DNA from: Agelas oroides
Lineage: Eukaryota; Porifera; Demospongiae; Agelasida; Agelasidae
Length of the DNA stretch: 64,000 bases
Assembly: GCA_949130485.1 (NCBI GenBank)
Contig: OX422183.1
Coordinates: 12,002,543-12,066,542 of the forward strand
Direction: 5' to 3'
Position 1 is the stretch's first letter; every line of letters starts with the position of its first letter. Shown in pieces: positions 275-63,974 of this stretch. Below the pieces are notes generated by a model. It was not told the origin of the DNA. It was given only the letters and a program-made list of their open reading frames with translations, and searched no databases. A program made the position numbers and the translations under genes.

Positions 275-660
275 TAGTCACGCAAGCCCGACCCACTTCC
301 GCAAGAGAGGGGAAGGGTCTGGTGAACTGCGTATACAAGCCGTATCCCACCGGAATGCAATTAGTTGGATGACATAACCAGATTTCAAATAATGCACTTT
401 TGAATTACCTGTTGCGGAGTAAGCACACTCCCCGAGAAGTAAAGTCGAAGTGTTTTTACAGCTTCTGCAGTAGCGGAAAAGATGCCCTAGCTCATGTCAA
501 GACAGCTATTGCTACTCAAACAGTGATGTAATGCATCATGTGGCAAAATACTGCAATCTGATTGTACCGCACTGTACAGTGCGGCGGGACACGGCTTGTA
601 TACGCTGTTTACCAGACCCTCTCTCTTCTCTAGCGGAAGTGGGTCGGGCCTGCGAGACTA
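275..660. mobile_element. TAG...CTA inverted-repeat element, 386 bp, copy 1
   Basis: The terminal inverted repeats read TAGTCACGCAAGCCCGACCC on the left and, on the complement of the right end, TAGTCTCGCAGGCCCGACCC. The element lies between perfect 9-bp direct repeats GGTCAAAAT (266-274 and 661-669). It carries no recognisable open reading frame, so it is non-autonomous. A second copy in the same orientation closes the window at 63,595-63,974, with the interior (CCCACCGGAATGCAATTA, GTCGAAGTGTTTTTACAGC) aligned throughout. Nine-base target duplications are typical of Mutator-like transposases; that assignment is inference. Confidence 0.85.
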
Positions 661-1543
661 GGTCAAAATGCACTGCAGCACTCAAACTTGCCAGACAAAA
701 TCCAGTATGAAAAAGACTGGGTTCTAGCCACCAACTGTGCTGATGAAAACACTCAGCCACTGCCTGGAAACAACTTACTGTCCTGACTGATAAATGTACG
801 TTCTAAACAAACTACACTGTCAAAGTGTACATGATGATACACTGAAGGGTTGAGAACTTGTACTATGGTAAGTATCTCCCCATCCAGCCTGGATAGTTAC
901 TTGTATGCATAGAAAACGTACCAATACAGGGCCACTAGAAGAAAGTTGAGGAGTATGAGGCTGTTGGGTAAAATGCATGGGGAAAACTGACTTTTAGACC
1001 TACATTTTAGCAGTCAGGAAATGCTTGTTGAACTTAAAACAGGTAGCTACACTGCAAGATAGGTACTTCAAACCTGAAGGTTCCCATGTACTGTTTTATA
1101 TGATCACAACTATATACAGCTAATCTACCTGAATTTAGTCCGGGAACCATAAGATGCGCATAAATCGCACAAAGTTGGGCAAGTCGGCTGGAAAAAAATC
1201 TGCCATGGTCTGACCAGCCATACCAGTTCCAGTGCCTACATATAACTTTAAGTCTGCTAGCCTTGTTCTCAGGCCACCCTCAGATTTACAGATGTCAGAT
1301 CAAAGTTCCATTCAGAAACCTGTACTATACCATTGAGTAAATCATTTTTATGCAGAAATGGTATTTCCTTGCGAAATTTTGCCATCATAAATAGGATTAT
1401 CTAGTTCACTTAGTATTTCCAACTTGTTGGAAATTATGAAAAACGTGCATGTATTCTTGATCAAGGCAGCAACAAATAGTCTTATGTCGAGCCATCCAGG
1501 CCTCCCAATGAAAAATTTCTGGTGGATTGATTCAAATTCCTAA

Positions 1544-1811
1544 AGACTTAAAAAACATTAAAAATGTAAAAAGATGTAGGGATGGCATGCCAAAAAGTAT
1601 GCAAACAAGGTAGGGATGATATAATAGTGAAGGTAAATTTACAAAGCCTCATCCCTGCATCGTTTTCACACTAGTTTGCAACTGTAGTGTAAAAAGATGT
1701 AGGGATAGGACTTTGTAAATACCTTCACTATTATATCATCCCTACCTTGTTTGCATACTTTTTGGCATGCCATCCCTACATCTTTTTACATTTTTAATGT
1801 TTTTTAAGTCT
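1544..1811. mobile_element. Foldback MITE, 268 bp
   Basis: The two halves are inverted copies of each other. The left arm begins AGACTTAAAAAACATTAAAA and contains GATGTAGGGATGGCATGCC; the right arm is its complement and ends TTTTTAAGTCT. The same arms recur at 29.06-29.19 kb and 29.75-29.89 kb around a longer centre. Similarity to the outer flank of that second copy continues past 1,811 (TGTTTCTGTACTTTTTTATC), so the original unit is wider than the visible hairpin. No target duplication was found. Confidence 0.75.
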
Positions 1812-2221
1812 TGTTTCTGTACTTTTTTATCATAATCTCAGTTACAGTTAGACCTGGCTAAGCATCATGAAGACTATTATTCAAGTGTAACCACAGCCTA
1901 AGAACTTGAAGCAGCATCGACAGATTAGTAGACAAGTGGTTCCAAACATGTAATATGACAGCTGGAATCCGATGTAGAGCCAACCACTCTCCATACCAGA
2001 TTTTTAGCCCTTTGTGAAGCAGATTTCCTGATCACATGACAACTGACCAGCACAGAAATCTGTACCCACAGAGCAGCTTTACTAAAGCTATGAGTATATT
2101 TTAGTGTAGCTGTAAGTAAGCAACTTAATGCAGCGCCTTACCTACGTGGTGTCCTTGAACCGTTCCCACTACTACGGGAAGAGACCATCTGTGCTTACTG
2201 GTCAACGCGGCACGTGTGCAC

Positions 2222-2718
2222 TAACCTCGCTCCCAGACCAATGACCGTGGTCTTTGGTCTGGGAACGAAACTGCGTTTGCGCATGCGCACAAGATTAGAA
2301 AATGGCGTCCTACGCAACGGATAGCAGCTGGGCTGTGCTGTGAGCAGCTTGTGAAAGTTGAACTGGAGCTACGGAGAAGCTAGGGATCAGGGGCACTTTG
2401 GGCTGAGGTATGGATCATTTTCGTGCTACAACCACGGTGAGTACCTAAGCCATTCTCGAGATATTTTGGTTGACGAAACAAAGAAAGAATACGAAAAATG
2501 GCACTTTTGCTACCGCACACTTTTGTGTTTAACTGTCTTCCGCGTGGCTTTTTGCCATTTATATGAGTCTTGCTGATCACAAAGGTACTCAAAGAGGAAG
2601 CCTGGGCGCTTAAATAAGCTTTTAGCACATTTGTGGTGAAGTTATATGGCTTTTGCTTAAGTATTGCATATATTGCGCGTCGGCGCCATCCCTACATAGA
2701 GAGTCTACCGACTCTCCG
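2222..2718 (+). repeat. About 0.5-kb interspersed repeat, copy 1
   Basis: This stretch matches the minus strand of 27,214-27,737 almost end to end. Both copies start with a small hairpin built from CCCAGACCAATGACC and GGTCTGGGAACGA, and end in a short palindrome AGAGAGTC-x-GACTCTC next to GGCGCCATCCCTACAT. A GTGAGTAC splice-donor-like site is kept in both. The unit may be a non-autonomous transposon or a duplicated gene 5' end. No protein family was recognised in the open frames. Confidence 0.65.
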
Positions 2719-2889
2719 ATAGTCAAGAAAGCATGTCTAGCAAAACAGGAATGGAGCACTGATGCATACAGTTCCCTATTTGATTATACACTCTTTGATT
2801 TTCGATATTCCAGTTGGAAAGCATCCTAATGACTAACATTTAATCAAACCACCAAGAGGTCAGACATTGTGGAGAAGCACTGGAGACTG

Positions 2890-3140
2890 ACATCACTACT
2901 TGTAGGCCTGTCGCCCCAGCATGGAGTCGAACTTCAGTAGCTATGTGTACATATACCAGAGTAGGCTATAATTTATGCAACCCACATGGACTACTGCTGA
3001 GTTTTACGTCAACTTATGAATTCTGATGCATTGGCACACTTGTAAATCTCTACTGAATACCTTAGGAAGAGCTGTAGAACAGTTGGCTGGGTGCCTTGCT
3101 AAGCAAGCAAAAGTCAGCAGTCGATGTCAAAGTACAACAG
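2890..3140 (+). repeat. Direct repeat, first copy (with 3,920-4,165)
   Basis: The run from CCTGTCGCCCCAG through AGCTGTAGAACAGTTGG to AAAGTACAAC is repeated with roughly 85-90% identity at 3,920-4,165. The second copy also carries an extra CATGTAGCTAC insertion. An inverted fragment of the same unit starts the window. Confidence 0.65.
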
Positions 3141-3339
3141 CCATCCAAATACATAGTCTTGCGCGCGCGAGACTTCCAGCCGCGCCGCGAAGTTGTCTTA
3201 TGAATATTTAATAAGATGATGTCAAAGCGGGTGTATCCCGGTCCCCTTTTCACGGTGGTGAGACAAGGTCACGCCCATAGCTCCACCCACCGGATGCGGC
3301 ATTCGGCCTGTACCTAACAGGAACCAATTTTTTTTGCGC

Positions 3340-3650: not shown

Positions 3651-3760
3651 GTATTTTTTTTTTGGACGCACTTTCGACTTAGTCTCTGGACAGCAATGCA
3701 TATGCGCATGCGCAGTGCCACACCCTCTGTGTACTTGGACCTTTGAGAAGGGCGTGTTCG

Positions 3761-3850: not shown

Positions 3851-3919
3851 AACAAGATACTTGTTATCAATCTCTTCAACCAAACTTTTGTAATATACAT
3901 GCCACTCCAAGACAGACCT

Positions 3920-5950: not shown

Positions 5951-6950
5951 GTACTGATGGAATGGAATGAATGTCGATGTTGCCCACCAGGAGCACAAGA
6001 CAAGTACAAAACAGGTTCTAAAATATCAATGAGGAACATACAGTTTTCTAAATTTAGGTAAAAAGGCAGTTCTCTGAGTTTCTCCATTAGATCCTTCACT
6101 GTCCAGTTTTGCTCCAGGTTAAGGTCAGGCTTGTGGTATTCCATGATGTGTTCCAAAACTGTTGTTCCAAACTCAGAGTTCTCACACAGTGGTCAAGGAT
6201 ACCGTCCTCTTCCATGGTGGCTCATGACTCGGCTCAATTTCTGCAACCCAGCTGTATACTTTTCCCCAAAACTGAGACAGGTGTCCCACAATTTGCTCCA
6301 GCCAATGTCCTTCGCCACTTCAGCAATAAGCAGGGCCTAAAATAGGGGGGTAACACTGCCCATTTGTGCAGTGATTAAGCTAGATTGGGCAGTGATAAAA
6401 TCTAAGTTGGGCAGTGTTAAAAATTAATGAGTAAGTATATTCAACCAATATCCCATTATCCTCCACATGAAAGAATAAAAACATTTCTGATAAAAAGAAA
6501 AGATACTGAAATGACGGTCCCAAGTTTAGTCGAATTATCATGTGGTTGTTGTCATTTAAACCTGAAATGTAACGAAGCGTTTCCATGCGGGAACTTCGGG
6601 AAGCACTATTGGGCCGTGTTAAAAAATAGATATTTTAGGCCCTGGCAATAAGGGGAGACTTCTCCACACACTGTATCTGTTTGTCATTCTTCCTGATTTT
6701 CTCCTTCATTCCTCTATGTTCAACTGCCTCTCCCCTCAAAATATTCTCGGTGTATCTGGTCATCATCTTCTCCTCCAATTCTTCGCACTCTTTTACTAGA
6801 GATAGAGAGGAGATCTCATCGCAGAAGGACTCCCTTACTTGCACACTAAGACCGTACATGACCCTCTCTGCCAATCACCTGCCTCAGAAAACCTTCACTT
6901 CATTGCTGGTACCTCCAAAGCTGTGAGCGCTGCCGTGTTGGAGAAGTGTC
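5947..6950 (-). pseudogene. LINE ORF2 C-terminal fragment (minus strand), split by a MITE
   Basis: Reading from high to low coordinates, the minus strand encodes broken pieces: SLVKECEELEEKMMTRYTEN, then SPLIARA, then GWSKLWDTCLSFGEKY, then LSRVMSHHGRGRYP, and finally an open 69-residue end with EHIMEYHKPDLN. The same order (ELE block, WTKLWDMVLDHG block, Cys/His end) occurs at the 3' end of the 9.5-13 kb LINE, so this is its C-terminal region. The frame is interrupted between about 6,645 and 6,330 by a hAT-like MITE with its own target duplication. The fragment is dead. Confidence 0.6.
6331..6644. mobile_element. hAT-like MITE, 314 bp
   Basis: The termini are CAGGGCCTAAAATA and its complement TATTTTAGGCCCTG. 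They are flanked by a perfect 8-bp target duplication GCAATAAG (6,323-6,330 and 6,645-6,652). The CAGGG terminus and 8-bp duplication are the hallmark of the hAT superfamily. Short internal motifs TTGGGCAGTG repeat near the left end. The insertion interrupts an older LINE fragment, so it is the younger event. Confidence 0.9.
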
Positions 6951-7289: not shown

Positions 7290-7976
7290 CAAAACCTGGA
7301 CTCTGGACTCTGGACTGGACTATGGAACTGGACTATGGACTGGATTATGGACTCGATTTTGGACTTGATTTTGGACTGAACAGCATTATGTACGAACTAA
7401 CCTCGTGTTTCGGAACTTTCCAGGCCTTTCCACAGTCCAGTTTTTGATTGCTTCCATTTGTGTGCCAAAGGCTTATACATTTTTTCAGTGTATATGGCAG
7501 CGTTAAGGCCTAGACAATGCATATAGGTAATTGAGCTAGAGGCCAAGTAATCTCGCAAGCCATACCCTTGCGAAGAGCGGGCTTGCAAGACTAGAGGCTG
7601 AGGTGGTGTATAGTGAGCATATCTGCTCAGGCAAGATGCTCTTACTACTGAGCCACTGGACCCGCGGCAGAGGAGCAGAAGCAAGCCTTGTAACAGGCAG
7701 GCAAGAAATTCAGCTAGCTGTCTAAAGCTTATGTTAGGTATTATAAGCTTACAACTCCTTGCCAACAAGCTGGGCTGGAAGGCTGTAAGAACAGAGTGAT
7801 GGCTTAAACCAACCAGCCAGTCTTGCTAATAGCTGCAAACATATCCGCTTTTTTTTTTACTGTTAGGACAATCTTCTACTCATTGGGCAATCCAGCATTC
7901 TTAAAACAGCAGCTCTAGAACACTATTTACTGTCCAACTGAGTCCAAAATCGAGTCCATAATCCAGTCCATTTTCT
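7290..7976. mobile_element. Possible element with subterminal GGACT-rich inverted repeats
   Basis: An array of TGGACTGGA- and TGGACTCGATTTT-type repeats at about 7,290-7,380 faces its complement (GAGTCCAAAATCGAGTCCAT, AATCCAGTCCA) at 7,938-7,975. The arrangement resembles the better defined element at 44,153-45,012, whose ends carry the same CTGGACTGGATT motif. The outer boundaries and target duplication are not clear here. Confidence 0.4.
7548..7593. mobile_element. 46-bp TAG...CTA mini-element
   Basis: The sequence starts TAATCTCGCAAGCC and ends GGGCTTGCAAGACTA, an imperfect hairpin with the same terminal sequence as the 380-bp elements at the window edges. Flanking 9-mers are GAGGCCAAG and GAGGCTGAG (7 of 9 identical, both differences transitions). 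Next to it, the complement of 7,620-7,660 holds a tRNA A-box-like TGGCTCAGTAGTAAGAGC, perhaps part of a SINE. Confidence 0.55.
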
Positions 7977-9539: not shown

Positions 9540-12500
9540 GAGTGCACCCCCTGGGACACGATGAACACTCTTCAGTAGGTATTAGCCCAATGGAAGCTCT
9601 CAGTCAAATTGGTGTCAACCCAGATCTGAAAAGGGAGGACCTTGTGTCATCGTTCCTACTCTCACACACTGAAGACCAGCTGAAAGCAGCTAGAATCCAG
9701 CTGTTTGAAGATGTAAAATGTATGGGGCTGCCCCACCCCAAAGACATTTTAGTAAAGCACATGAAGCGCACAACTGGTCCCCCACTGAGGAAGAAGTCAT
9801 GCCCTCGACATTGTCGTACTTACCTACGTTGTCAAGAATAACCAGCTTGTGCCTCGCATACTGCTGAATAACGGTAAACACTCAGCCACAGCTCAAATGT
9901 CGGCTCTCCACTGGTTCTCCAGCTCCCGAACCCAACCTCAGCTCCAATGTCATGACCCCAATGGCCCCCCCCCCCCCCCCCCCCCACAGCACAAGAATCT
10001 CGCAGAATGTGATTACCACGGTGACAGTGGGTCAACTCAACTCTGGCGAGAGGGATAAGCTCACTGAGAAGTGAGCTGTCCCACCTCAGAACGGAAGTGC
10101 ATGCTCCACCTACAAAATGGCAAGCCTCCTAATGCCCCTGTTGTAACCGATGATTGTCTCCTTTATGTGAGACTGAGAAGCCACCCACTTACCACAGAAG
10201 TGGGGACGTCCATGCTAGAGAACCTGCTGCGATGTCCAATCCTGAACTACTCCATTATTCACCACTCTCCTGCCATGACCCTGAAGGTGAAAATCCCCAA
10301 GTACCATCTTCATTTAGCTCTGACTGCCCCTGACAACCAACTGGTTACAGTACGTGTATGGACTAAATTGCAAGGTGCGGGGCGAGTTTTCAATGACAGC
10401 CCCTCTTGTAGTTAACCAGATCCTAAGCAACGAAGCCATCAGCTGAGAATATCTACATGGAATTGCAGAGGCCTGAACAGAGGTGAACCCTGTGTTCACC
10501 AACTGGCAGACAATGGCTCTGATGTTGTCGTTGTCACAGAACACTGGCTGTGGCCATTTCAATCTCATTGGCTGAGTCAGGTCCACCCCTCCTTTACCGC
10601 AGAGGTCAAAACCGATACTACACTTGACGAAAACTCTTCACTCACAAGGAGATGTGGTGGAGTGGAATTAATGTGGAGGAACACCCTCTATGCCAATCCC
10701 TTTTCATGCATCTCTGGTGATCGAATATGTGGAATTTGTGTGAAGCTGTCTTCATCTGAACCAGCTGAATTGACCATCCTCGAGGTTTACCTCCCCTGTG
10801 CCGACTTAGGACTGGAAACACACTGCGAACATCTAGTGGAGCTGGAGAGTTTGATCTCGGAGGGCCAAAAACTTGGACCTGTGTTGATTGCTGGAGACTT
10901 TAATGCTCACCTGGGTCCACTGGGTGGTGTCAGAGGACAAGGCATCCCCAACCAGCAGGGAGTCTTCTTAAAGCAGCTCCTTGACCAATGCGAGCTACAT
11001 GCCGTGTCCCTCTCCTCTCTGTCTGAGGGGCCTCTGTACACCTTCTGGAACACTGAAGTCTAAAACTGTGCTGCCAATGAAGAGAGAAAAAGGGTGCAAC
11101 TCTTTGACTGGAGATTCAAGCAGAAAAACCCAAACCGCTTTGAGACACCCAAAACATGCCGCCAGGGAACCACACTGAGGGTGGACCCGCTCATAACATC
11201 TGACCCAGATACCATCCTAGCCACCTGAGAGAAACATTTCAAGGACCTTGAAAGAACAATTTCCTGTCCTGTCTGGCGCAAAGGAGCAATTATAAGTAGA
11301 CCAGATCCTGATTAAGTCCCTGGAAAATGAGGAAACATTACCTGATGGTCCTTTTTGCTCCGAAGAGATTGAAGGTGCCCTGAGAAAACTAAAATCTGGC
11401 AAGTCCGCAGGGCACGATTTGCTACAACCTGAACACCTCAAGCATGGTGGTAAAGTCCTCAAAATTTGGATCTAACAAGTCTGAAATGCAGTTGTGGAAC
11501 TCGAAAGCGTGCCTGACTCGCTGAAGTTTGGAATTGTGACCCCCACTTACAAAGGGGGTGGCAAGGATCCTCTCGACACCTACAGCTACCGAGGGATCAC
11601 CCTTACACCAGTGCTCGCCAAAGTGCTTGAGTCCTTAATTCTTGATCACCTCCAAGACCTGCTGTTGGAAAAAGGGATACCTCACCTCAATCAAACCACC
11701 AGAGGAAAGTGTCATGTGGGGAAGCCATCTTCTCGACATTGGAAGCTGTCTCGCAATTTGCCCAGCAGGGTGACAGGATGTATACATGTGCTTTTACGAC
11801 CTCCAAAAAGCCTTTGATTTGGTGCAGTACCCTGTCCTCCTCAAGCGCTCATATGAAGCTGGCATTTATGGCAAAACCTGGAGAGTAATAAGAGACTGGT
11901 ACAATCATCCCAGGAGCAGAGTGAGAATGGGTGGCCAATTGTCAGCTGAATTCAGTCTTGAGTGTTGTATTCTCCAAGGGTCAGTACTATCACCAGTCCT
12001 TTTCCTACTAGTCATGGATTGATCCTCTACTTAGAGAGCTGGAACATAGTAGCCTCGGCTCCTCTGTTTATGGCACCTACACCGGCGCCTTTGCTCATGC
12101 TGATGACATACACACATGCAGTAACCAGCAGCCTGCCTTCACTACAACAGGAGATCCATGTGGTGCAAAAGTTTGCCAAAGAGAATGCCCTGGCACTGAA
12201 TCCAGCCAAGTGTGAGGTCCTGATTGTCTCCCCCTCCAAACCTGTTTCTTGAACGCCTGTCTGCACCCTTGCTGACCAATCACTCCTCCCGAAAGAGAGT
12301 GTCAAGTGCCTTGGATACTGGTGGTCATGGGATCTCTCAGCGACCAAAGCTGTCAACAAAGCCATCAAGAAAGCCAGTAGGGCCTTCCTCACCTATGGGG
12401 CAATGGGAGCCTTCCAAGGTAGATTAAACCCTATCTCGGGCAAACCATCTTCGACACACCCGTCCTACTATTTGGAAGTGAGAACTGGATACTGACTGAT

Positions 12501-13929: not shown

Positions 13930-14539
13930 CAGGGGCGGATCCAGGATTTTAAGAAGGGGGGGGGGGGCAGCATAGGGTGTTTTGTTGGTGCGGCAATGCG
14001 GCGCGCGCAGTGCATGCAGTTTCTGTGCGCGTATAGTGCGTATGACGTAGCGTTGTAGGGGGGTCTGGAAAAATTTAGAAATTTAGACCGTATGAGAGTG
14101 TTTCTGAGGCCGTCCGAGACCACAATAAACACACAAAATTTATGGCAGCTGGACAGTAACCGAGGCGATTCGTCGTATGATCGTTTCTCGGAACCCCTTC
14201 CTTTCGGAATCAGCCTTAGTATTAGTCTCGCGAGCCAGCCGTATTTTTCTTTATTTCCGGTGGGAGGAGCGAGAGGGAGTATTTTTCTCTCCCTCTCGCT
14301 CCTCCCACCGGAAATAAAGAAAAATACGGCTGGCTCGCGAGACTACCTTAGTATATGAGGCACTGCCACAGAACTGTCTCTTGGGAGCTGCAGATTTGAG
14401 TGCTTTATGTTTGCAGGACTTGAAGTAGTGATTGATAAAGAGATGTGCGCTGCGTCGGAGTAGCTACGTGCGTTAAGCGCGGTGAACCTCCGCGTTTTGC
14501 GCTTGCTCAGTCCCGAATGGGGGGGGCATGGGCCCCCCA

Positions 14540-15131: not shown

Positions 15132-15370
15132 TAGTCTATCAAGCCAGACCATCTCTCACCCTCCAGAACAGCGAGAGGTCTAGCAGATGTTATTAGTATG
15201 CATAGTTCACAGCTTGTTTTAATCTGCAAACCTACAACTGCACCTGCATTAGTCTTACACTCTGAAGTCAAGGTGTTGCTACTGTCTCAAAATTGACGGA
15301 TTCATGAATACTAGTAACATCTGATAGACCCTTTCCTGGAAGGTGAGAGAGGGTCTGGCTTGATAGACTA
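15132..15370. mobile_element. 239-bp TAG...CTA element
   Basis: The terminal inverted repeats are TAGTCTATCAAGCCAGACC on the left and GGTCTGGCTTGATAGACTA on the right, extended by CTCTCACC-TCCAG and its complement. The flanking 9-mers are ACTATAATG and AGTATAATG (8 of 9). No open frame is recognised. It lies about 0.5 kb beyond the 3' end of gene A. Confidence 0.85.
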
Positions 15371-18800: not shown

Positions 18801-21800
18801 AACAACACGAACAAACAGTCAAAGGCAACACTAGTTCAGCAGGTCACTTTGACATGACTTTGACTAGGTAGGTAGTGCACCACTTTTTCTGTACAATAAG
18901 AATACGTAAAGTGAGAGTAGGAGAATGATGTTATTTGACATCGTTTTAAGGATTTATAATGAGATAAGTGAAGTACTGACGAAGGCGAAATGGGAGTAGC
19001 TAGGTGAATCCAGAATGGGTGAACCCAGACAAATACCAATTTGAGTGTGTATCCTTAATTATGAGCCTTCAGCTGAAGAAGTCTATTAAACACATGCAAA
19101 GGTGCAACCAAATGTTTGCTAAGAGTATGTATATGTTTTACAAAAGTCATAGAACATTTTATTTTGGTAGTATACATGCATTGGATATGGCCGAGTATTT
19201 CTGAGTGCTTGTGTAAGACGTCGAGATTACTACCTCAGTCATATGTGGTTGGAGCTTGCGTGTGCACAGCAACTCCTCTACAATGTTCCACTTATCTGTA
19301 CAACATCAGTAGCCACAGCAGTAGTAAAACCCGGGTGTAGCTATGGAAACATTTGGTTTTAGCAGCTGGTGTAACTACCGCACTGGGTACCAAATTATAT
19401 TGTGTGGGTACAATTTTGTTTTGATGTTTGAGATCATGAATATCTGGTGGCATAACAATGAAAGCTATTGACAGTAGCCTATGGTCTAACTATGGTAATA
19501 CTTTAGTCTACCTTGTCAAAATGGACATCTGATTCTTGGTAGCACAATCAGATTTTATGGGTACAAATTATTTTTGATCTCTAGATCATAATTGTTATGT
19601 GGTATAATGGTTATGTATTGCCGGTAGTTTGTGAAAAACACGACTGTAAATACAATCAAATCAGCAACTGAAGTTTTAGTAGCGTAATCAGATTGCAGTA
19701 CCAAAATGGTTATGTTGCCTGAGGTCAGGACTATCTTGTAACATGATGGCAACATAATGGGTTATCTTCTAACTATGATAACAGAATAAACTAGCTGCGC
19801 CTCGTGCTTTTGATCAGTATAACTATCTCAAGGTGGTAGGCTAAATACAATCAAATTGCTAGCCTCATTTCCAAGTCCTCCCCCATGACAACTCATTGTA
19901 TTGCAAGCGACAAAAGACTGGGCGGTGGCCTGGGAATGAGGCTATCAGATTTCACCACTGTACAAATTCTTTTTATGAGGTCAGGAGTAACCATTACTAT
20001 ATTTTATGTAATTGCTAATAATCTACTGCCAAACTAAGTTAGCACTATAGGCCTATTGCCTAACTATACAGCAACAAACAGTTGTGTACGTACCTTGTGC
20101 TTCCACTGATAAGACAGCGTAAGGACTGTAGTAATTTAAGAGGTTGGGATTACTCTTAATGGCTGCACACTGCACTGCTATCCCGTCCCACTGGATATCA
20201 CTTCGAAGTTGCAGTTGCTGGATTTCGTATTTCTCATTTAGGTTTCCTGTGAGGGGACACTCAACCAAGGTACGAATTGATAAATCCATCCCTGTGTTGT
20301 CTTGAAAGGTAGACACTCCTAATTGATTGAATCGTCTCGTGTTGATACCACGACGGCCCACAAACCAATACAAGGTGTGTGTTTCCGAATCAATGCATTG
20401 TAGAGAGCAATTAAAATAAGCCTGCTCTCTGCTCTGTACAGTGAGGTCAAGAGGCTGAAGACTGATGTTCATAGCTGCACAAAGATAATACCAAATTTAG
20501 TGCACATTATTTCATTAGCAATAACATTAGCAGTCATTAATATTGAACAATAGTACACGTGGGTTTTCTAGTGGAGTCATGCGGGTCATCATTGACCTCT
20601 CCTGACATTCATATGGTTGAACCCGCAAAAGTGAGAGATAACTTAGATAAGGTTCTCGGTAGTGGTGGATGTGCAAATACTGATTCACAATGCACAGAGG
20701 AGCTCAATGACCCGAGACAATACATTTGTTGCCATGTTACAGTAATGTAAATCAATTGGTGTTCACACTTTGATGTGGGGATGGGTAGCCGATGAGTAAC
20801 TAACATTCCATATCATAGCAATAAAAAACAATGTGCAGTGGGCCGTATACTTATGATTGCTAAAAAATACCTTTGCCTGAGAGGTTTTACTTGGGGGTGA
20901 GCTTGTTCCTATCCTGATTGCTGGAGAAATGCGCGTTACACTCAGTGCATGTGCTACAGTGGTGTAGCCAGGATGAGCAAGTTACGTGGGCACAGCATGG
21001 GCTCACTCAGTGTGTGTGGAGCACACATCTGCTAGGAAATCTGGGGCATGCTCCTGCCATGAAAAATTTCATAATTATACATTCTGAAATCGCATTGGAG
21101 GCCGTTTTCGGCTACAAATACCATTCATTCACTCTTACCTGTATGCTTGCTTCACATCCACATGAAAACTTGCAATCGCACATGCTAATACCTGATCTTT
21201 GACCTTAGCTTTCCAAATTATTTTTACCAGGGCACAAGCGAATTTTACGTGGGCACAGGCCAGAGTATGCTCAGGTGTAGCTACACCACTGATGTGCTAT
21301 GCTCAGGCAGTATCACTTACAATCCAAACAACAAACTCTCAAAATCGGTGTATATATATAATATGTAGTTGGTCTGTGGACTTATCATGATAAACAGCTG
21401 TACGACTATACATGATCTGGTAAGGTCTGGCTTTGGCTACTCCTCAGCATACACAAGCTATGATTTCTGTACTATGTGCATGTTTATGCAGGCACTCACT
21501 CAGGCTCACCCCCACAATGTCCTACAATTCCATAGTAAAAGAAACTACAAAAAATGACTTCTTTATTGCTGATAAGGTTCAAAACTATATGGGACTATAT
21601 CTAATCATCTCACCCCTAGTCGTAATATGTTATCCTTTACTTATTTAAAACTGTTGTGACTGTGGCTGCAGTATATCATCTTCGTAGGCCCAGACCTAGC
21701 TTCCTCACAGTTGTGCAAGCAATGGAAAACTCAGGGCTGATCCAGGACTACTGTGAGGCTAATAGAGAAAATTATCCCATTAATTACTTATGATGTGTTA

Positions 21801-26924: not shown

Positions 26925-26970
26925 TAGCCTCGTACCCAGGCCGCGTGCACGCGGCCTGGGTACGAGGCTA
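26925..26970. mobile_element. 46-bp perfect palindrome, TAG...CTA mini-element
   Basis: Two 23-bp arms (TAGCCTCGTACCCAGGCCGC and three more bases) are exactly complementary with no loop. The flanking 9-mers are ATACCGTAT and AAGCCGTAT (7 of 9, CCGTAT shared). The outer sequence TAGCCTCGT-CCCAGGCC is the same as that of the 94-bp element 0.8 kb downstream. This is terminus sequence only, with no interior. Confidence 0.7.
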
Positions 26971-27760: not shown

Positions 27761-27854
27761 TAGCCTCGTTCCCAGGCCATTCCCGCCTCCAGTTTTTGAT
27801 CGCTTGCAGTATCGATCAAAAACTGGAGGCGGGAACGGCCTGGGAACGAGGCTA
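27761..27854. mobile_element. 94-bp palindromic TAG...CTA element
   Basis: The arms TAGCCTCGTTCCCAGGCC followed by TTCCCGCCTCCAGTTTTTGA and their complement face each other around a short centre containing TCGCTTGCAGTA. The flanking 9-mers TTGCTACGC and TTACTACGC agree at 8 of 9 positions. No coding capacity. Confidence 0.85.
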
Positions 27855-33761: not shown

Positions 33762-34320
33762 TAGTCTGGCGAAGCCAGACCCAAGCGCGCAGCGCGAGGG
33801 TCTGGTCTAATGCCTATACCTGACCTGTGCATCCTGGAATGTGTAATAAGTGGTTATTATCAGCTTATGAATGTCATTATAATGCGGGAATCGATGTACA
33901 GCCCTTCTGCCTGCATCTGAAACGCTATTGACAAGCAGTACGATATCTTGGCCGTGTCAGTAGTCAATACTGGCGGTGAACTCCCAGGGCTGACCTTATC
34001 AAACTGAAGGGGAAGGAGCCAAGCGGAGACACTTCCCTTAGTCCTTCGGAAGAACAGCGATGCCATCACGCTCTTGCAGGAAGGTAGTTTGCTAACTTTA
34101 GCTGTTTTTCTTTCAAGCTATGGTAGCCTAAAGTCGCTAGTAAGCAGCCTTTGTGCTTTGATTCAAAGCTATGACGTTATCAACCGGATGTTCTTATTAC
34201 ATTCCCGTGACGTTCTGCGATCTGATTGGAGCTGCAATATATTTGCAGTGGGGACAGGTCAGGTATAGGGATTAGACCAGACCCCCGCGCTGCGCGCTCG
34301 GGTCTGGCTTCGCCAGACTA
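33762..34320. mobile_element. 559-bp TAG...CTA element
   Basis: Inverted ends of about 60 bp begin TAGTCTGGCGAAGCCAGACC and continue to TCTGGTCTAAT-CCTATACCTGAC. They are themselves internally palindromic. The flanks are a perfect 9-bp duplication CCTAGTCTC (33,753-33,761 and 34,321-34,329). No open frame of note is present, so it depends on a transposase supplied elsewhere. Confidence 0.9.
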
Positions 34321-34727
34321 CCTAGTCTCGTCCGGGTCGTCCCCATACCCCAGCTTCACACGAGGAGAAACGGTCTGGTGACGAATTTCTTAGCAACGTT
34401 CAAGCCAAACCCTTCAAAAATAGGGACGGATAACTTACTCGAGTAGATTTACCGTTGTAAGGCGGGAATTGGAAGTTTACGTATTAATTACCGATCTCGC
34501 AATCTCATTGGTCCTTACTACTTTTGGGGCATAAGCTTCTCGCCAGGAGGCACGAGACTAATAAGCCCATGCCTAGCCTCGTCCCCAGGCCCCACCCAAA
34601 CAACGGGAAAGGGGCCTGGTGTCACTTGCAAAAATTCCCGTATGTACTGTGTCAGCAGTCTTCGTTTGGAGTAGAGGAATCACGTTCCAGTCGAATCGCC
34701 AGCGTACGTAACGTCAATAGACCTTTT

Positions 34728-35385
34728 ACGCGGGCTTAGTTTACGGGATTTTGCGTAAATGCGGAAGTGCAAGTGCCACGCCCCTTGGTGGGAAAGATAC
34801 GCGCGCTCACACAGCTGCACAGTCGGCCTGCAAATTCACAGAGTTGTATTTTTGTTGAAAATTTTAACACCTGCAGGACAGATGGTTAATAACTGTTGTG
34901 TTGTCGGCTGCACCAACTATGTTAGTAAAAAAAAGGTCTCAGTTTCTACCGTTTTCCTGTAGCTAACAAAGAGAGATGCGAGAGATGGGTGGTTGCTGTG
35001 CGCAGAAAAGACTGGCAACCTACACCACATTCAAGAATCTGCAATGAACATTTTATATCAGGTAATGAACCGTAGAATTGTGTGTACATGGTCGTAGCAA
35101 GCGGTCATGCAGATCGGATTTCGTCCGACCAAATTTTTAATGTGCACATGCACGTCTTTAGTCGAATAACTAAGATCATCCTTCTCTTCAGGATCAAGCA
35201 GCTTTAGTTCCTCTAAGTATCTGCTCTGCGCAACAGCATCTAACTTTCTGTACTACTCGCTCATCGCCTGTCTTCAACACGGTGCAAGGCAGCTGCACAA
35301 CGCAACTTTCCCACCAGTGGGCGTGGCACTTTACTTCCGCTCTACTCCGCATTCCTATAGTAAACGGTGCAGCGTAAAAGGTCTA
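34728..35385. mobile_element. Nested inverted-repeat unit around the THAP exon
   Basis: The left end TAGACCTTTTACGC is repeated in inverted form as GCGTAAAAGGTCTA, with matching subterminal blocks (ATGCGGA-GTG, AAGTGCCACGCCC-TTGGTGGGAAAG against the complement of 35,310-35,340). No target duplication was seen. It may be a separate transposon that landed in the 2.6-kb element, or the original THAP-bearing unit. Confidence 0.6.
34882..35061 (+). pseudogene. Frameshifted THAP zinc-finger exon
   Basis: The start MVNNCCVVGCTNYVSKKK gives the first two THAP cysteines. In another frame the exon continues FYRFPVANKERCERWVVAVR then KDWQPTPHSRICNEHFISG and a GTAATG donor at 35,062. That supplies the conserved P, W, C and H and the closing C-x2-H-F. 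The break falls in an eight-A run at 34,927-34,934, a typical slip site. THAP is a DNA-binding zinc finger found at the N-terminus of P-type transposases and in host proteins derived from them. No DDE-type partner exon was found. A sequencing slip is the alternative to true decay. Confidence 0.75.
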
Positions 35386-37333
35386 TACCCGCCCGTACAA
35401 ATTTATTTACAACGCGGCGTGCGTACGTGCGCAATAATATACGGAGGTGCGCGAAAATGCACGGAAGCTGCATGAATATTTTAACCGCTGTAACTCAGGA
35501 AGCCAATACAGAAATAGCATAAAAATAGAAGGACATGCAATGCATAAGTAGGCCTTCATGTGTAGCAAGTTTAGGACTCATTTCAGCTTTAGGAGCAAAG
35601 ATACTGCAGCTGCAGAGTGATATTCCGGGTCTGTGCCAACAAAGCTGGAACATTTGCCGTAGCCACCTGCTGGAACTATTCCAAAGGCATGCTGTAATCT
35701 GACTGGGTATATTTCATAAAACTAGACCATAAAAATCAGTGTCCACTGTGGCATAACAGTTCAGCGCATGTTCCAAAAACATAGGTATCAAATACTGCTT
35801 TTATGGTGTACGTGCATATATTGTTCAATCTGTCAAGTTCACACACAACTCATTTTGGCTGATATATCATGTTTACATGTAATTGGATACAAATCAACAG
35901 TAAACAGGTGAACACAGGTTGCAGTGAGACGACAATAATGATTGAGCAGAATTCCGGCTAGAGGGCTCAGTCCAGGGATAAAAGAGTTACCATGGGAATT
36001 TCTGGCAACTTTTGGTAACTCCAACAAGGCCTGTGTGGTGAATATACTCAACTGGTCTTTCAGGCACACTCTGCTGGAGAACAGGAAGTAATTATCATTA
36101 CCAAATTTATGGCTGAATCAATGATGGCCTGCACAGCACACATTCGGCATGCTACTAAGGCATTTATAACCCCCACAGTGTCCTGAAACACCTAGCATGC
36201 GGAATGCTACACAGTGATTGAATGCTCTTAAGCAATAGCTAGATTGCATCAAAATCTAATGTGCTCTTGGTAATAGTTATAACTTGTATTCTTGTCTTTC
36301 TATGGAAACACTGGGACACAAGTCTTGTACTCGTTGAGTAGTCTGGGGCAAATAGAAGTAAAATATCCCCAAAATATCAAGTAGATAGGCTCCAGCAATG
36401 AATGATGGAGTGAAGACCCCCACATAATCAAATGGTTAGATCATATTTCGGTGGCACATTTGCTGTAGCCAGCACCTACAACCTCCAAAATTCATGTGTG
36501 TTACCTACAGTTGCTGTAGTTCTTAGCAGCGCATATATCGTTTGTGTCCACTACCCTAGTATGGAAAGCGAGCATAAAACGTTCCTACCCATGACCACAT
36601 GCCCCACACTTACGACGGTTTCCTGGACCCTGTTTAACCTTCAATTTGCTTTCAGTACTCATTCCTACATTCTATTATCTTAGTACTAGCAGCTGAGCTT
36701 ACCTCTAGTCAGGATTTCTACCTACGTCTCCAACGCCAGCCTTCCAAACACAGCTGAACCGCTCCTGCATTTCCCGCTCCAAATAGTGCCTCTTGGATTA
36801 CGTCATTGCAATTAAAGTCCCCGTTTTACGCACGCTGGCGATTCGATTGGTTCGTCCATTACCAATTACTAAATTCTTGATCGACACGTGAAATGAGTAG
36901 TAGACTCGTTCCAAGACCAATTGAAAATGGGAACGAGGCAAGCAGACTTTTCATAAATCTCGGATTTCAGAAACTTAGAGCGTAGTTACGCTTGCTAGGG
37001 TACTACTCTTGTCTCACAGGATTTGTCTGTGTCGCTCCGTAGCAAGATCTGTTCATCTACTCTGTAACGCCATCGTCAACAGTAGCTAGCTACCACGTGA
37101 TCACGTAAGGCATGTAATATGCTGACTCAGCACATACGAGAAAGCTTGCAAGTGACACCAGGCCCCTTTCCCGATTTTTTGGGTGGGGCTTGGGGACGAG
37201 GCTAGCCCATGCCCACCGGTGCACCGCGCCCCACGCCATATGGCCATGCGCGCCCAGTCCACACAATGATGTAATTAGTTGCCTAGCAACGCATGGGAAG
37301 CGAGGGGGTGTGTGAGCGGCAAAACAACACTTT

Positions 37334-39511: not shown

Positions 39512-39585
39512 ATTCCTGTCACTCAGTTGGTAAGAGCATCTGATCAGAATTCAGAAGACCCAGGTTTGAATATCCTGGCTGGATC
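39512..39585 (+). tRNA. tRNA-like pseudogene or SINE head
   Basis: CACTCAGTTGGTAAGAGCATC resembles a D-arm/A-box. TCTGA-TCAGAAT-TCAGA forms a perfect 5-bp anticodon-type stem with a 7-nt loop, and CCAGGTTTGAATATCCTGG resembles a T-arm/B-box with two extra loop bases. Position 33 of the loop would be C rather than U, and the ends do not form a convincing acceptor stem. It is most likely a decayed tRNA-derived repeat. Confidence 0.45.
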
Positions 39586-39916
39586 TCAATGTCTTTTTTC
39601 ACCATGCATACTAGCTGAACCATACCACCAGTCATGTGACTCTCACAATGCATGTAACTATGACCAAATTCCTGCTTGACTGTACAAATTTTGTGCAGCT
39701 AAATAAACACAGTCATCCTACGTATGTTGCAGGGCTGGGTAAGTACCATAAAAGAGTGCTGATCAAGGTTATAGTGAAGTGATTTCTAACAGCAAGCTGT
39801 CAAAGCCATTATTCTCCAATTGCTCACATGATGCACAGGCTGGCAGAATGACAGTTTATCTGTAAGTAACACGGTATTATGTAAGTATATACCTTTGAAA
39901 GAAACCAGTGAAGTCT

Positions 39917-45745: not shown

Positions 45746-46480
45746 GTTTGTATAGCACAGTCAGCGCAGTTGGATGTACTACTCAAGCTCATTTCTGTGG
45801 CAATAAATGACATGTAACTTTGTTTTTGTCTTCAGCAGCTAAATGTCTGATTGGAAAGACCACTTCTGTTCATACAGAGACATAGATCCAACATGTATAC
45901 CCTAGTAATTATCTGATTCAACAGCTCAGGTTTTCAGATCACAACACTATACTACAGTGGGTCCTCGAGATGTGAACACATTTGCTATTCAAATGACCAT
46001 GTGTTGAATGTAGTCTGTGTAGCTACTCCATCCTCTTAGTTTTACGTATTTGCTTAGCAAGTAACTTGAACTTCCATTTATGCACTAAAGTATGCATGGT
46101 ATTCAGGACGTATAGCCACAGGCACAGTCATGTATGTAGCTAAATTGCAGTGATCAGCTTATATATTGTTGTAGTCCCTTGGTTAGCATCTGTTTGTACA
46201 AGCACTATAGTGTATGTACTGGTATATAGCATGTTTGTTTGGTAGACATGTTTTATTAGCAAGTGTGCTTGTGTACTTCAATCTTGATTCTAGGCCTTTC
46301 TTGGAATGCAAGGATGATTACCCATGACCTGTTATGTCTACACTTTATACATCATTGAGCAATACCACCAACAGGATATCCTATCTTCATTGTTTCAAGC
46401 ACATTAATCAATGTTCCAGAAAATGCAATCATATTGACAATAACAACAGTTAAGTACAAATAGCTAGGCTAGCTCAGACC

Positions 46481-46732
46481 CAGAGGAGGTCGGACATGGT
46501 TGAACTTTACTAATTAAAATGGCTGAGGTCACACTAATTGATTTTTCGTATCTCAACAGACTAGCTCTCTCGGCTTTGACCGAGGTGGGCCCCAGTTTTC
46601 AAATCAGGATTCAAGGCTGGATCCAGTCATAGAAAAAGCTAAAAAAACTTTCTACCTTGCAATATCCAAGATCAATTAGTGTGACCTCAGTTGTTTCAAT
46701 TAGCAAAGGTCAACCATGTCCGACCTCCTCTG
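46481..46732. mobile_element. 252-bp MITE, CAGAGGAGG termini, 9-bp duplication
   Basis: Inverted ends of about 70 bp begin CAGAGGAGGTCGGACATGGT and continue through the complement of GAGGTCACACTAATTGAT. The direct flanks are GCTCAGACC on both sides (46,472-46,480 and 46,733-46,741). The CAG terminus is hAT-like, yet the duplication reads as 9 rather than 8 bp. No coding capacity. Confidence 0.85.
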
Positions 46733-51944: not shown

Positions 51945-53180
51945 TTCAGGCAATCAACAATACAACATTATAGACAGTAATGTTGTTGTTTGCCTGAAGA
52001 AGCCCAAAAGGCTTGTGTTGTTGATTGCTTGAAGAAGCCCAAAGGGTTTGTGTTGTTTACCTGAAGAAGCCCAAAGGGTTTGTGTTGTTTGCCTGAAGAA
52101 GCACGAAGGGCTTGCGTTTTTGTTTGCCTGAAGAAGCACAAAGGGCTTGTGTTGTTGTTGTTTGCCTGAAGAAGCACAAAGGGCTTGTGTTGTTGTTGTT
52201 TGCCTGAAGAAGCACAAGGGCTTGTGTTGTTGTTGTTTGCCTGAAGAAGCACAAAGGGCTTGTGTTGTTGTTGTTTGCCTGAAGAAGCACAAAGGGCTTG
52301 TGTTGTTGTTGTTTGCCTGAAGAAGCACAAAGGGCTTGTGTTGTTGTTTGCCTGAAGAAGCACAAAGGGCTAGTGTTGTTGTTGTTTGCCTGAAGTAGCA
52401 CAAAGGGCTTGTGTTGTTGTTTGCCTGAAGAAGCACAAAGGGCTTGTGTTGTTGTTTGTCTGAAGAAGCTAAAAGGGCTTGTGTTGTTGTTTGTCTGAAG
52501 AAGCTAAAAGGGCTTGTGTTGTTGTTTGTCTGAAGAAGCCAAAAGGGCTTGTGTTGTTGTTTGCCTGAACAAGCCCGAAGGGCTTGTGTTGTTGTTTGCC
52601 TGAAGTAGCACAAAGGGCTTGTGTTGTTGTTTGCCTGAAGAAGCACAAAGGGCTTGTGTTGTTGTTGTTTGCCTGAAGTAGCACAAAGGGCTTGTGTTGC
52701 TGTTTGTCTGAAGAAGCTAAAAGGGCTTGTGTTGTTGTTTGTCTGAAGAAGCCCGAAGGGCTTGTGTTGTTGTTTGCCTGAAGTAGCACAAAGGGCTAGT
52801 GTTGTTGTTTGCCTGAAGAAGCTAAAAGGGCTTGTGTTGTTGTTTGCCTGAACAAGCCCGAAGGGCTTGTGTTGTTGTTTGCCTGAAGTAGCACAAAGGG
52901 CTTGTGTTGTTGTTTGCCTGAAGAAGCACAAAGGGCTTGTGTTGTTGTTGTTTGCCTGAAGTAGCACAAAGGGCTTGTGTTGCTGTTTGTCTGAAGAAGC
53001 TAAAAGGGCTTGTGTTGTTGTTTGTCTGAAGAAGCCCGAAGGGCTTGTGTTGTTGTTTGCCTGAAGTAGCACAAAGGGCTAGTGTTGTTGTTTGCCTGAA
53101 CAAGCCCGAAGGGCTTGTGTTGTTGATTGACTGAAGAAGCACAAAGGGCTAGTGTTGCTGATTGCTTGAAGAAGCACAAA
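51945..53180. repeat. 35-bp minisatellite with higher-order structure
   Basis: About 35 copies of a unit close to TTTGCCTGAAGAAGCACAAA followed by GGGCTTGTGTTGTTG. The unit is 35 bp, or 38 bp where an extra TTG is present. Variant units (AAGTAGCAC, AACAAGCCCG, AAGAAGCTAAAA, AAGAAGCCCG) recur in the same order, giving a block of seven to eight units that starts at 52,561 and again at 52,844. One inverted unit (CTTCTTCAGGCAATCAACAA) sits at the left edge. The unit has no stop in most minus-strand frames, so long frames of Gln/Asn/Thr-rich protein appear. These are by-products, not a gene. It lies directly beyond the Ig exon of gene C. Confidence 0.9.
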
Positions 53181-53291
53181 GAGAAAAATGTTGCGATGAA
53201 TTACAAGTTGCAAAGGGCAGCGCGTCTCTACTACAAATTCACTCTAGAGGAGTGCTACACGAAATATACTCTATCACTACTCTGGACTTAC

Positions 53292-55340: not shown

Positions 55341-55344
55341 TTAT

Positions 55345-61306: not shown

Positions 61307-61309
61307 GTG

Positions 61310-62335
61310 TGTAAACTACAATGAGATATGTATCCAATTGAGTGTATAAACTGTGTGAATATTCAAAAGCTGTTGTAGCTAATCACAGAAATGCATGGGT
61401 ATGCATAACACTTAGACTTGCTTTAATATGCATTGTTACACTTATACAAGGCATTTGCACTTTTTTCACAAGATGTCGTAGAACTAATTTTGTGTTGTTA
61501 CTTATAGCTTGTTAACAGCTGCTTGGCAGATTATGCAGCAAATGGCTCATCCTTACCAAGTCAGGCATTTGTTTTCGTTATATTACAATGCTTGTTCTAA
61601 CTAATTAGAAATGTGATATCCCTGAGAAACGGCCTGTATCTCTACTTTGATCTAATGCCCTGACTGTGTGCACTCCCCACTATGAAACATTTATGTTTAT
61701 GAGTAAGAGGGTAGGGTCTGGGCACAAGACAAGGTCAAGATTAATACGCAAGGATACCACACAAATGCAAGAGTGGTTGTAAGTACGAGAGGTGTATGCG
61801 ATGGGTAATTGATTTGTATATACCGGTACATACTGTACATATTATACTAAATAATAATACTGCACATAATTTAAACACACACTTATGATGCTGTATATTA
61901 GGTAAGTTAGTACATGCTGTAAGCAGATGTAAATTAATGTACTTAAATAGTCTTAAGTCAAGTATGAGATGTGTAATAAGGTAGTTAGGCTAATAGGCAC
62001 TACCTAAAAGGCAAGACTTGTTACACTCAACAGTTGAGTGGAAGGTATGTCGGTACAGTCATACATTCACAGGCTATACACTAGGTATATGTCTTCATAG
62101 TGGCCTGCAGAACAAAGGTCAGTGAAGATTGCTCCTTTCCTTTCTGCCTCCTCATCACTTCAGTCCAGCTACCTGGTATCATGCAAAAGTGGGATCTGTG
62201 GTGAAGATGGACTGCTCTGTGAGCGGCAGTTAAGCGCTCTGTGAGCGGCAGTTTAAGCCATCTATGACAAGTATTTAAGTCCACACTCTGTGTCAAATGG
62301 TTATACCGTCTATGACAGGTAGTTAACCACTAGCT
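61310..62335. other. Gene D 3' flank, no further gene
   Basis: Probable 3' untranslated region and intergenic sequence. No canonical AATAAA was found close after the stop; the nearest similar string is ACTAAATAATAA near 61,846. A short direct repeat TCTGTGAGCGGCAGTT-AAG occurs at about 62,216-62,254. Confidence 0.4.
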
Positions 62336-62339
62336 AAAT

Positions 62340-62396
62340 TGGCCTCATACCCAGACCACTTTTTCACTCCACATGTACGGCCTGGGCATGAGGCTA
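62340..62396. mobile_element. Decayed TAG...CTA mini-element, 57 bp
   Basis: TGGCCTCATACCCAGACC and GGCCTGGGCATGAGGCTA form the ends. Directly flanking 9-mers match poorly (TAGCTAAAT against CCACTAACT). A better match to the right flank (CCACTAGCT) lies three bases further out on the left. Confidence 0.5.
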
Positions 62397-62399
62397 CCA

Positions 62400-63580
62400 C
62401 TAACTATAGTATTATGGTAGAATTGGCCTTCCTACTAGCTAGGTATAACATGCAACTACAATCAGAATAGTTACAAGTTTAGTATGTCACCGTTACACAG
62501 CTACAAGTCAACATATGTGAGTGGTTCAAGTAAAATCCAAACTTTATGTCCTGTGACTCAAGTTCTATTAAAATTGAGGTTTACAACAATGGAAACACTC
62601 ACAGGTTATTAAAGTTGCTTTTCTCCATCTACAAATGTGCAGGTATCTTACAAACTATTATATATATTACCCAGTGGGTGTTAGCCACACCCACCTTAAT
62701 TGGCACGTGATTCTATGAATATCATTAATATTTGAATTTTACTTGAACCACTCATATATAAACCTCAAGTTGATGGTTGATGTCACCGAGTGGACCCTCC
62801 ATTTGTTGCAGAGCAGAAACCACTTTCACTACTAGCTGTCATCCAAGCTACTTACTAGCTACTTGACTACTGAACTGGGCAGTGTATCTCACAGATATAT
62901 CAAATGAAATGCTGTACAATTGCAGTAAAAGTTAAAGCCATGCAGCATAGTGGCCATGCAGCTAGGAGTACAAGGGGATCCTTTTACCATTTCCTAACAT
63001 TTCATGACTTCTAGTCCAAAATGTAGTTGCAGTTGCACTTCTGGAGACGGAATTGGGTGGAGAGTCCTCTGAGATCTGAAGACTATGTACATTGATGTCA
63101 AGTGGAAGTGCCAGAAGCATGGCTAGCTAGCTACCTCCACTCTGTTCCAGGTTCCTTTTTCTGTTTACTTGCCATTAACACAAAAACTGCCAACTTCAGG
63201 ATTCCAGAGACAACGGAATAAAGTTTTATTTAACCACCCCACAACTTTGAACCCCCATTCTATAGAAGTATTGTAAACTTCAATTCTGTATTCAACACAT
63301 CTTGCTTTACCTGACATGCCTGATGTGCATGTAAGTACAGAATACTTCATCTGAATCTTACATAGTAGCTATTTGCCACCATGGGGTGGAGAGCTGGAAC
63401 ATCAAACTGCTGAATATGTGTGCGTGTGGTCACTGGGTGTCTTCTTACAAGTCATCCAGGGCAGATTTTGTTTTAAAGAGAGCATCAACTAACTATTTTG
63501 CTATTATGGCACTGATTAAGGGATGAAACTGTCTCTGCATGTTTGGCGGAAGTGGGGCTGTTCATCGTTGCTGCGCGCGG
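62400..63580. other. No gene recognised
   Basis: A minus-strand frame at 63,165-63,350 (CVEYRIEVYNTSIEWGFKVV) is protein-like in composition and has a GTAAAG donor-like site inside, but no domain or partner exon was found. The remaining sequence is AT-rich and featureless. Confidence 0.4.
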
Positions 63581-63594
63581 TCGGCAGTAGACAC

Positions 63595-63974
63595 TAGTCT
63601 CGCAAGCCAGACCCACTTCCGCAAAAAGGGAAAGGTCTGGTGAACCGCCTTGTCCCACCGGAATGCAATTAAGTGGATGACGTAACCAGGTTTCGAATAA
63701 TGCACTGTTGTTGCGGAGTAAACACGCTTCTGAGAAGTATAGTCGAAGTGTTTTTACAGCTCCTGCCGTGAGTAGCGGAAAAAATGTCCTAGCTCTTTTT
63801 CGCCGTTTTCAAGACTGCTATTGCTATTCAAACAGTGACGTAATGCGTCATGTGACAAAATACTGAACGTGTTTGATGTGTTTGTACCGCACTGTAGAGT
63901 GCATGCGTCGGGATACGGGTTGTATACGCAGTTCACCAGACCTCTTGCGGAAGTGGGTCTGGCTTGCGAGACTA
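63595..63974. mobile_element. TAG...CTA inverted-repeat element, 380 bp, copy 2
   Basis: The ends are TAGTCTCGCAAGCCAGACCC and the exact complement, ending GCGAGACTA. The flanking 9-mers are AGTAGACAC and GGTAGACAC (8 of 9). The interior is colinear with 275-660 (CCCACCGGAATGCAATTA, TAATGCACT, GTCGAAGTGTTTTTACAGC, TATTCAAACAGTGA) in the same orientation, with small indels such as the loss of GCGTATACAAG after GGTGAAC. No coding frame of note. Confidence 0.9.

Follow-up and report, generated by a model that had tools for sequence, protein, structure and literature searches.

The arms of the Drosophila Foldback element are flanked by 9-bp target-site duplications (TSDs). Duplications of this length also flank a group of palindromic elements, here called TAG elements after their TAG...CTA ends, found in a stretch of 64,000 nucleotides from the sponge Agelas oroides (assembly GCA_949130485.1, contig OX422183.1, positions 12,002,543 to 12,066,542; this whole stretch is "the window" below, and its first letter is position 1). 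The closest described systems are foldback Mutator-like elements (MULEs), together with Rehavkus, Drosophila Foldback and the deletion derivatives of P.

The portions of the published accounts available here describe these systems as follows. Muta1, a type-2 foldback MULE of Aedes aegypti, makes 8- or 9-bp TSDs whose sequence is of little importance, and its 145-bp ends have a terminal motif that is palindromic, with subterminal repeats of 12 bp; its transposase is known and active, excision and reintegration having been assayed in yeast, and over 300 derivatives have truncated terminal inverted repeats (TIRs) and varied interiors (PMC5225508). Tm1, a Mutator/Foldback element of the root-knot nematodes (Meloidogyne), makes TSDs of 8-10 bp, mostly 9 bp, without target consensus. 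It has a composite TIR with repeats of ~14 bp that differ between the ends, and its members mostly resemble miniature inverted-repeat transposable elements (MITEs); one of its types carries the gene for a MULE transposase, and just one element with a transposase gene was present in the isolates examined (PMC3169594). MULEs in general duplicate 8-11 bp, and Rehavkus, which is defined by a PHD-finger transposase, has been reported from arthropods and annelids (PMC6446971).

The TAG group is a real, very large and clean group of foldback MITEs. Its members are best read as palindromic MITEs, non-autonomous elements of the foldback kind that most likely belong to the Mutator superfamily and whose short forms would arise by central deletion of parents of ~400 bp. 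This reading is given a probability of about 0.63, a figure that, like those behind the wording chosen for its rivals, mixes the question of the enzyme with that of trimming and need not sum to one with the others.

Ends, target-site duplications and families

The TAG...CTA ends are a real dispersed family, found genome-wide. Across 259 Mb in 141 contigs, an end motif of 18 places has 21,180 exact matches, compared with 6 for the reversed motif; the 20-base end TAGTCTCGCAAGCCAGACCC occurs at 6,712 places with at most 3 mismatches, compared with 25 for the reversed pattern. If most of the 21,180 ends are paired, the genome probably holds about ten thousand elements. These have the features by which MITEs and other non-autonomous TIR transposons are recognized: they are short, have inverted ends, TSDs and a high copy number, and no transposase of their own was seen in the TAG elements read. 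The searches behind the copy counts below scored the best 40 (DNA) or best 150 (family) candidates, and the resulting counts are lower bounds.

Part of the 21,180 matches belong to what looks like a tandem array carrying TAG elements on contig C1, where TAGCCTCRTCCCCAGGCC ends repeat every ~17.4 kb between 1.25 and 1.43 Mb. Elsewhere, identical insertion flanks stand at several places, with the right flank altered in some (L126/L127, L092/L103, L117-L119); insertion flanks shared in this way point to segmental duplication.

The duplication is real and mostly 9 bp long. Two sets of elements bear on its length. The first was drawn from 344 kb, made up of the window and 68 loci that were found by searches, overlap in part and are not a random sample; allowing at most 3 mismatches in 16 arm bases, and removing repeats with identical flanks, left 26 inverted TAG pairs. 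Flank identity among these is 0.66 at 9 bp, compared with 0.19-0.34 when any other length between 3 and 14 is taken, and 13 of the 26 pairs agree in at least 8 of 9 positions, where shuffles gave a mean of 0.5 and a maximum of 4 in 500. This filter recovers eight of the ten window elements (275-660 and 7548-7593 are lost) and admits one false pair, 46011-46563, with flanks matching at 2/9.

The second set consists of 40 genome copies obtained as matches to a 94-bp palindrome of the window. Here, 9-bp flank identity is 0.76 as against 0.24-0.33 at other lengths from 5 to 13, and 25 of the 40 reach at least 8/9, 21 of them perfectly (shuffles: mean 0.7, maximum 4 in 2000). Duplications of 8 bp were seen in 4/40, and none by these terms in 11/40. 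Perfect 10-bp repeats flank L001, L122 and a TAG element nested in L114. Thus, the 9-bp duplications proposed in the initial annotation are borne out, with identity peaking at 9 bp only in both sets. It had named widely varying lengths, or flanks that resemble random 9-mers, as grounds for doubt; flanks stand far above shuffles, and lengths spread only from 8 to 10 bp. The target-site logo that it proposed for the whole genome was built from 40 TSDs instead, and reaches at most 0.15 bits, at positions 1 and 9, with 0.02-0.05 elsewhere; there is no strong target consensus among these 40 duplications.

One further idea, hinted at by eight short elements, was that the arms are homogenised after insertion. 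It was dropped after a test in 40 more copies, where 123 of 1855 arm positions mismatch as against 11 of 252 TSD bases, the latter counted only in those 28 copies whose TSDs differ at no more than 3 positions. Arm equality is no higher than the duplications show, and homogenisation finds no support.

TAG elements form families of roughly fixed length, at ~306, 396 and 400 bp. The ~306-bp family is the empty form of an element, L054, considered below. For the ~396-bp family, 39 places besides the window copy at 63595-63974 match over positions 1-380 among the best 40 of 694 candidates, with copies of 381-397 bp. Eight regions of the 400-bp family were fetched. In seven an intact element was present, flanked every time by a perfect 9-bp TSD; one of the seven is interrupted by a second TAG element, whose duplication is 10 bp long. 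Two micro-elements, each likewise with a perfect duplication, lie in the eighth region. L113 and L114 have the same 9-mer in opposite orientation, and may not be independent.

Six copies of the 400-bp family, when compared, are 94-99% identical in pairs, and their TIRs align over 113-144 bp. Their arms contain a 12-bp unit, GTAGACGTGAGG, in one to three exact copies, the number being unequal at the two ends in four of the seven elements (L109, L110, L111, L114). Long TIRs with subterminal tandem repeats that vary between the ends, a mark of Mutator foldback elements, were recorded for this family only, with long arms in 6/6.

The outermost 17 bases form an imperfect palindrome, GYCT-N7-AGRC. 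At its variable pair (position 4 and its partner), 62 motif hits, which take in background sites and related copies with relatedness ignored, divide into T-A 15, C-G 30, C-A 2, T-G 0 and other 15. Hence, 45 of the 47 hits having T or C with A or G at this pair are complementary, as in a palindromic terminal motif of the Muta1 type.

Micro-palindromes and the moving enzyme

The 94-bp window palindrome at 27761-27854 gave 1,368 first-look candidates, of which the best 40 were scored, so that the lengths of these micro-elements, 85-109 bp, are selected by the search. The 40 copies occupy 39 sites, as judged by their flanks, and have 22 different lengths; many carry perfect TSDs of their own. Central junctions were fitted against the arm of a related subfamily (L111, of the 400-bp family). 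This gave 35 distinct pairs of left and right end points at the 39 insertion sites; microhomology ranges from 0 to 5 bp, and there are five insertions of a single base. A second family, judged by eye, has a different centre at each of five independent sites, and when a 101-bp member was compared with other places, the closest match reached only 84% identity along the whole element. If a micro-MITE were multiplying, one junction would recur many times. For this reason the simplest reading is that micro-palindromes are mostly one-off central deletions, and not an amplified micro-family.

One micro-palindrome, L128 (C4:7766561-7766714), is flanked by inverted copies over 18 of 18 bases, all that were fetched, and not by a direct duplication; it looks as if one side had folded back and been duplicated in inverted orientation. 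L128 is one of 69 elements tested. Its score of 18 compares with a shuffle maximum of 8.5, and the next score, 10, comes from a duplication that is itself palindromic.

What moves the TAG elements is likely to be a Mutator-like enzyme, to judge from their ends and flanks. The initial annotation had drawn this conclusion from the 9-bp duplication, and much of it stands: the TSD (with its spread of 8-10 bp), the weak target consensus and the end anatomy all fit, Mutator-type TSDs being 8-11 bp and commonly 9 bp. What is missing from it is a MULE gene with TAG ends, none having been found in the loci described below. Its view that one enzyme recognizes only the ends agrees with these data as well, in the sense of one kind of enzyme and shared ends.

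A mechanism can be proposed along these lines. A transposase made elsewhere would bind the imperfectly palindromic terminal motif TAG-YCT...AGRC and move the element by cut and paste; its staggered cut, with little target preference, would leave duplications mostly of 9 bp. A parent of ~400 bp would insert with its 9-bp duplication, and its centre would later be deleted at the occupied site, whether via interrupted repair after excision, via replication, or through instability of the palindrome. The product would be a short palindrome with its two ends and its original duplication intact, and with a junction peculiar to that copy.

Several observations weigh against this reading. The genome gives at least 119 MULE hits, and no TAG pair surrounds the MULE match in any of 23 loci examined in part (15 of ~3.3 kb and 8 of 6 kb, several of them mutual copies, the short ones being liable to miss element ends). 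One MULE, L062, ends in GGTCGTTACT with an 8-bp duplication; another, L063, ends in GCGAATTTT and has a duplication of 9 bp. In the part of the genome searched, no TAG element was found to have a transposase of its own. The covariation in the terminal motif is strong and not absolute, T-start ends with AGG being found elsewhere in the genome; a variant with 8-base spacing has T-A nearly invariant (37/46), and so is no test of covariation. For the micro-palindromes, the L111 arm belongs to a related subfamily, so that fitted end points may be 1-2 bases off. Three copies share junction (57,31), with 5-bp microhomology, and each of two other junctions was seen twice, at different sites; a few micro-elements could, then, be mobile siblings. 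L081, L107 and L108 have uncertain edges. As for the enzyme, there may be just one autonomous TAG copy, as in Tm1, or it may have been lost.

L062 (C10:4872500-4878499) is MULE-like, with perfect ends of 76 bp; in its second frame there are matches to an Ulp1-type protease and to a PHD finger.

The best surviving alternative is that a cut-and-paste transposase of another or an undescribed superfamily, one with 9-bp TSDs and TAG...CTA ends, moves these elements, and that their likeness to Mutator is convergence. Such an enzyme would account for the lack of TAG ends around MULE matches at the 23 loci examined in part, and TAG...CTA is equally absent from the ends read of two MULEs, two Merlin elements and four P elements. 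However, the TSDs of 8-10 bp, the composite long TIR, the subterminal repeats and the palindromic terminal motif together make up the set published for Muta1 and Tm1, and convergence on all of these is a tentative proposal, well behind a Mutator-like enzyme.

A second alternative concerns the short forms. Micro-palindromes might insert already short, each transposition trimming or re-joining the centre before integration. Perfect TSDs and nearly unique junctions are predicted equally by this model. It requires a new step, however, whereas the same data are explained if the centre is deleted after insertion, through interrupted repair or because the palindrome is unstable; insertion in short form is accordingly thought rather improbable. 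Less probable again is the conjunction of both departures, in which an undescribed transposase lineage moves the elements and each micro-palindrome becomes a trimmed hairpin, with a junction of its own, before or during integration and not by later decay.

Merlin and hAT enzymes, which make duplications of 8-9 bp and 8 bp respectively, are both present in the genome (23 hits and at least 150 hits). At the two Merlin loci read out of the 23 hits, the inverted repeats begin GCGGATCAATC (L123) and GGATCAATC (L124), both of the GGATCAATC type and not TAG, and no duplication was pinned; 8-bp duplications, for their part, are a minority among TAG elements (4/40 vs 25/40 for 9 bp). That either enzyme moves the TAG elements is very unlikely.

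Nested insertions and the elements of the window

The largest element of the initial annotation, 34574-37204, was dissected by a genome search with 34560-37220, in which the best 40 of 611 candidates were scored. It has three layers: a TAG element holds a 1.5-kb element, which in turn holds a 670-bp element. Rejoined, the outer TAG element is 465 bp long, with arms identical in 76 of 85 aligned columns. Among the places scored, the middle element (34688-36849) occurs at 27 others without the 670-bp insert, partial copies included, and in five rows of the search its short left piece adjoins its right piece. The innermost element, which bears a THAP relic, has 12 other copies at 98-100% identity among those scored, and for this reason was probably active recently; a script found no duplication around it. 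Since the relic lies within a nested insert, it carries no information on the TAG enzyme.

P-like genes are present in the genome as well, with 48 matches to P-like transposases. One of these lies in L054, a TAG element of 4,885 bp with a 572-amino-acid open frame, which first looked autonomous, and which was the candidate for the long transposase-encoding member that the initial annotation proposed to seek. The P part, however, has ends of its own, CATAGATA, and is flanked by a perfect duplication of 7 bp, GTGACAC; the TAG inverted repeat continues across it. Among 40 matches scored to the empty 306-bp form (of 291 candidates), 35 are full length and uninterrupted, the remaining five being L054 itself and four partial matches. 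L054 was thus rejected as a P-encoding TAG element, in favour of a P insertion in a 306-bp TAG element. The same CATAGATA ends, with perfect 7-bp duplications, are found in four of six P elements examined (L054, L055, L057 and L059; L056 and L058 gave no clear result). These four are P-like elements of ~5 kb, and L010 and L011 match the gene region of L054 at 99.3-99.4%.

A P-like enzyme for the TAG elements was suggested by the THAP relic, whose combination with a 9-bp duplication the initial annotation called unusual, and later by L054, where TAG ends and a perfect 9-bp TSD enclose a P-like gene. Such an enzyme is hardly credible now that both genes prove to be nested insertions with their own ends, that the siblings of L054 are mostly uninterrupted, and that TAG elements show a 9-bp mode and not the 7-8 bp and P-type ends of that superfamily. 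Nested insertions inside an element with 9-bp duplications can, therefore, give the false impression of a hybrid enzyme.

A second candidate for a long member, a pair of perfect 20-mers 9.4 kb apart on C1, was set aside: it has no matching duplication. No transposase-like frame was seen there by eye in three frames of at least 120 amino acids (no domain search was run).

Recomputation reproduced the coordinates and flank scores of all ten window elements in the initial annotation (Table 1). The element at 275-660 begins TAGTCA. That at 7548-7593 is the weakest of the ten, with 12 of 14 arm bases pairing. Two of the earlier statements do not hold. Interiors had been called unrelated, but 275-660 and 63595-63974 share 76% identity along their whole length, and the elements starting at 19860 and 27761 share an arm. 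Sizes had been said to reach 2.6 kb, but that figure belongs to the nested composite, and the largest simple element of the window is 559 bp.

Table 1. TAG elements of the window and the insertions nested in them
Feature	Position	Strand	Flanks and remarks
TAG foldback element, 386 bp	275..660		TSD GGTCAAAAT, 9/9; same family as 63595-63974
Extra degenerate member, 52 bp, absent from the initial annotation	2222..2273		Flanks 7/9
Weak member, 46 bp, begins TAATCT	7548..7593		TSD 7/9
Palindrome, 123 bp, perfect 57-bp arms	14223..14345		TSD CCTTAGTAT, 9/9
Element, 239 bp	15132..15370		TSD 8/9
Degenerate member, 85 bp	19860..19944		TSD 7/9; arm in common with 27761-27854
Perfect palindrome, 46 bp	26925..26970		TSD 7/9
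Palindrome, 94 bp, query for the 40-copy micro-palindrome study	27761..27854		TSD 8/9
Element, 559 bp, 67-bp arms	33762..34320		TSD CCTAGTCTC, 9/9
Outer TAG element of the composite, left part	34574..34687		TSD GCCCATGCC, 9/9
Nested element, 1.5 kb without its own insert	34688..36849		Ends CAGTCGAATCGCCA; 4-bp TSD GTTC
Doubly nested element, 670 bp	34717..35388	+	Own inverted ends ATAGACCTTTTACGC; THAP relic at 34923-35054
Outer TAG element of the composite, right part	36854..37204		Same outer element as 34574..34687
Element, 380 bp	63595..63974		TSD 8/9

The window has other contents. A 35-bp minisatellite of ~34 copies at 51981-53181 has a long open frame on the minus strand; an Exo_endo_phos endonuclease domain at 10416-11063 probably comes from a non-LTR element; a weak tRNA match at 39512-39586 is barely over threshold (E 0.036); and some open frames look Ig/FN3-like by eye.

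Comparison with known foldback systems

A literature search, covering listings and the openings of abstracts, found no published description of TAG...CTA ends in them, and six end strings of 16-17 bases had no match in the papers searched for them; the accessible part of PMC13359780 gives no end motif. With ~21,000 exact copies of an 18-place end in 259 Mb, the TAG elements are a large natural series of foldback elements. The one-off micro-palindromes are their most interesting part. Because many of these keep their duplications, they document across the whole genome how the centre of a palindromic insertion is lost, a process usually studied with engineered palindromes.

The deletion derivatives of P, such as KP, also arise by internal deletion, through interrupted gap repair. 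KP-type derivatives, however, amplify as one junction, whereas here most micro-palindrome copies have their own.

Rehavkus, in the part of its description available, is like the TAG group in its 9-bp TSD, its TIR of 26-400 bp and its minisatellite-like repeats (PMC6446971); its PHD-finger transposase was not found between TAG ends, though no search was aimed at it. Tm1, as far as the accessible text describes it, has asymmetric terminal motifs of 7 bp, whereas TAG ends are symmetric, and one of its types encodes a MULE transposase, whereas none was found here. It is like the TAG group in its mostly 9-bp TSD, the lack of a target consensus, the unequal end repeats, the prevalence of MITE-like members and the nested insertions with other TSD lengths.

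Muta1, again from the portion of its description at hand, differs in having a known and active transposase, where none was found here, and in its ends, which here are TAG...CTA. Its derivatives number over 300, compared with perhaps ten thousand TAG elements, and one-off micro-palindromes are not described for it in that portion. The likeness nonetheless covers an 8- or 9-bp TSD whose sequence is of little importance, TIRs of more than 100 bp, a terminal motif that is an imperfect palindrome, subterminal tandem repeats of 12 bp, and hundreds of derivatives in which the TIRs are truncated and the interiors vary. On this comparison, the TAG group matches, and would add to, the foldback elements of Mutator type already known, such as Muta1 and Tm1.

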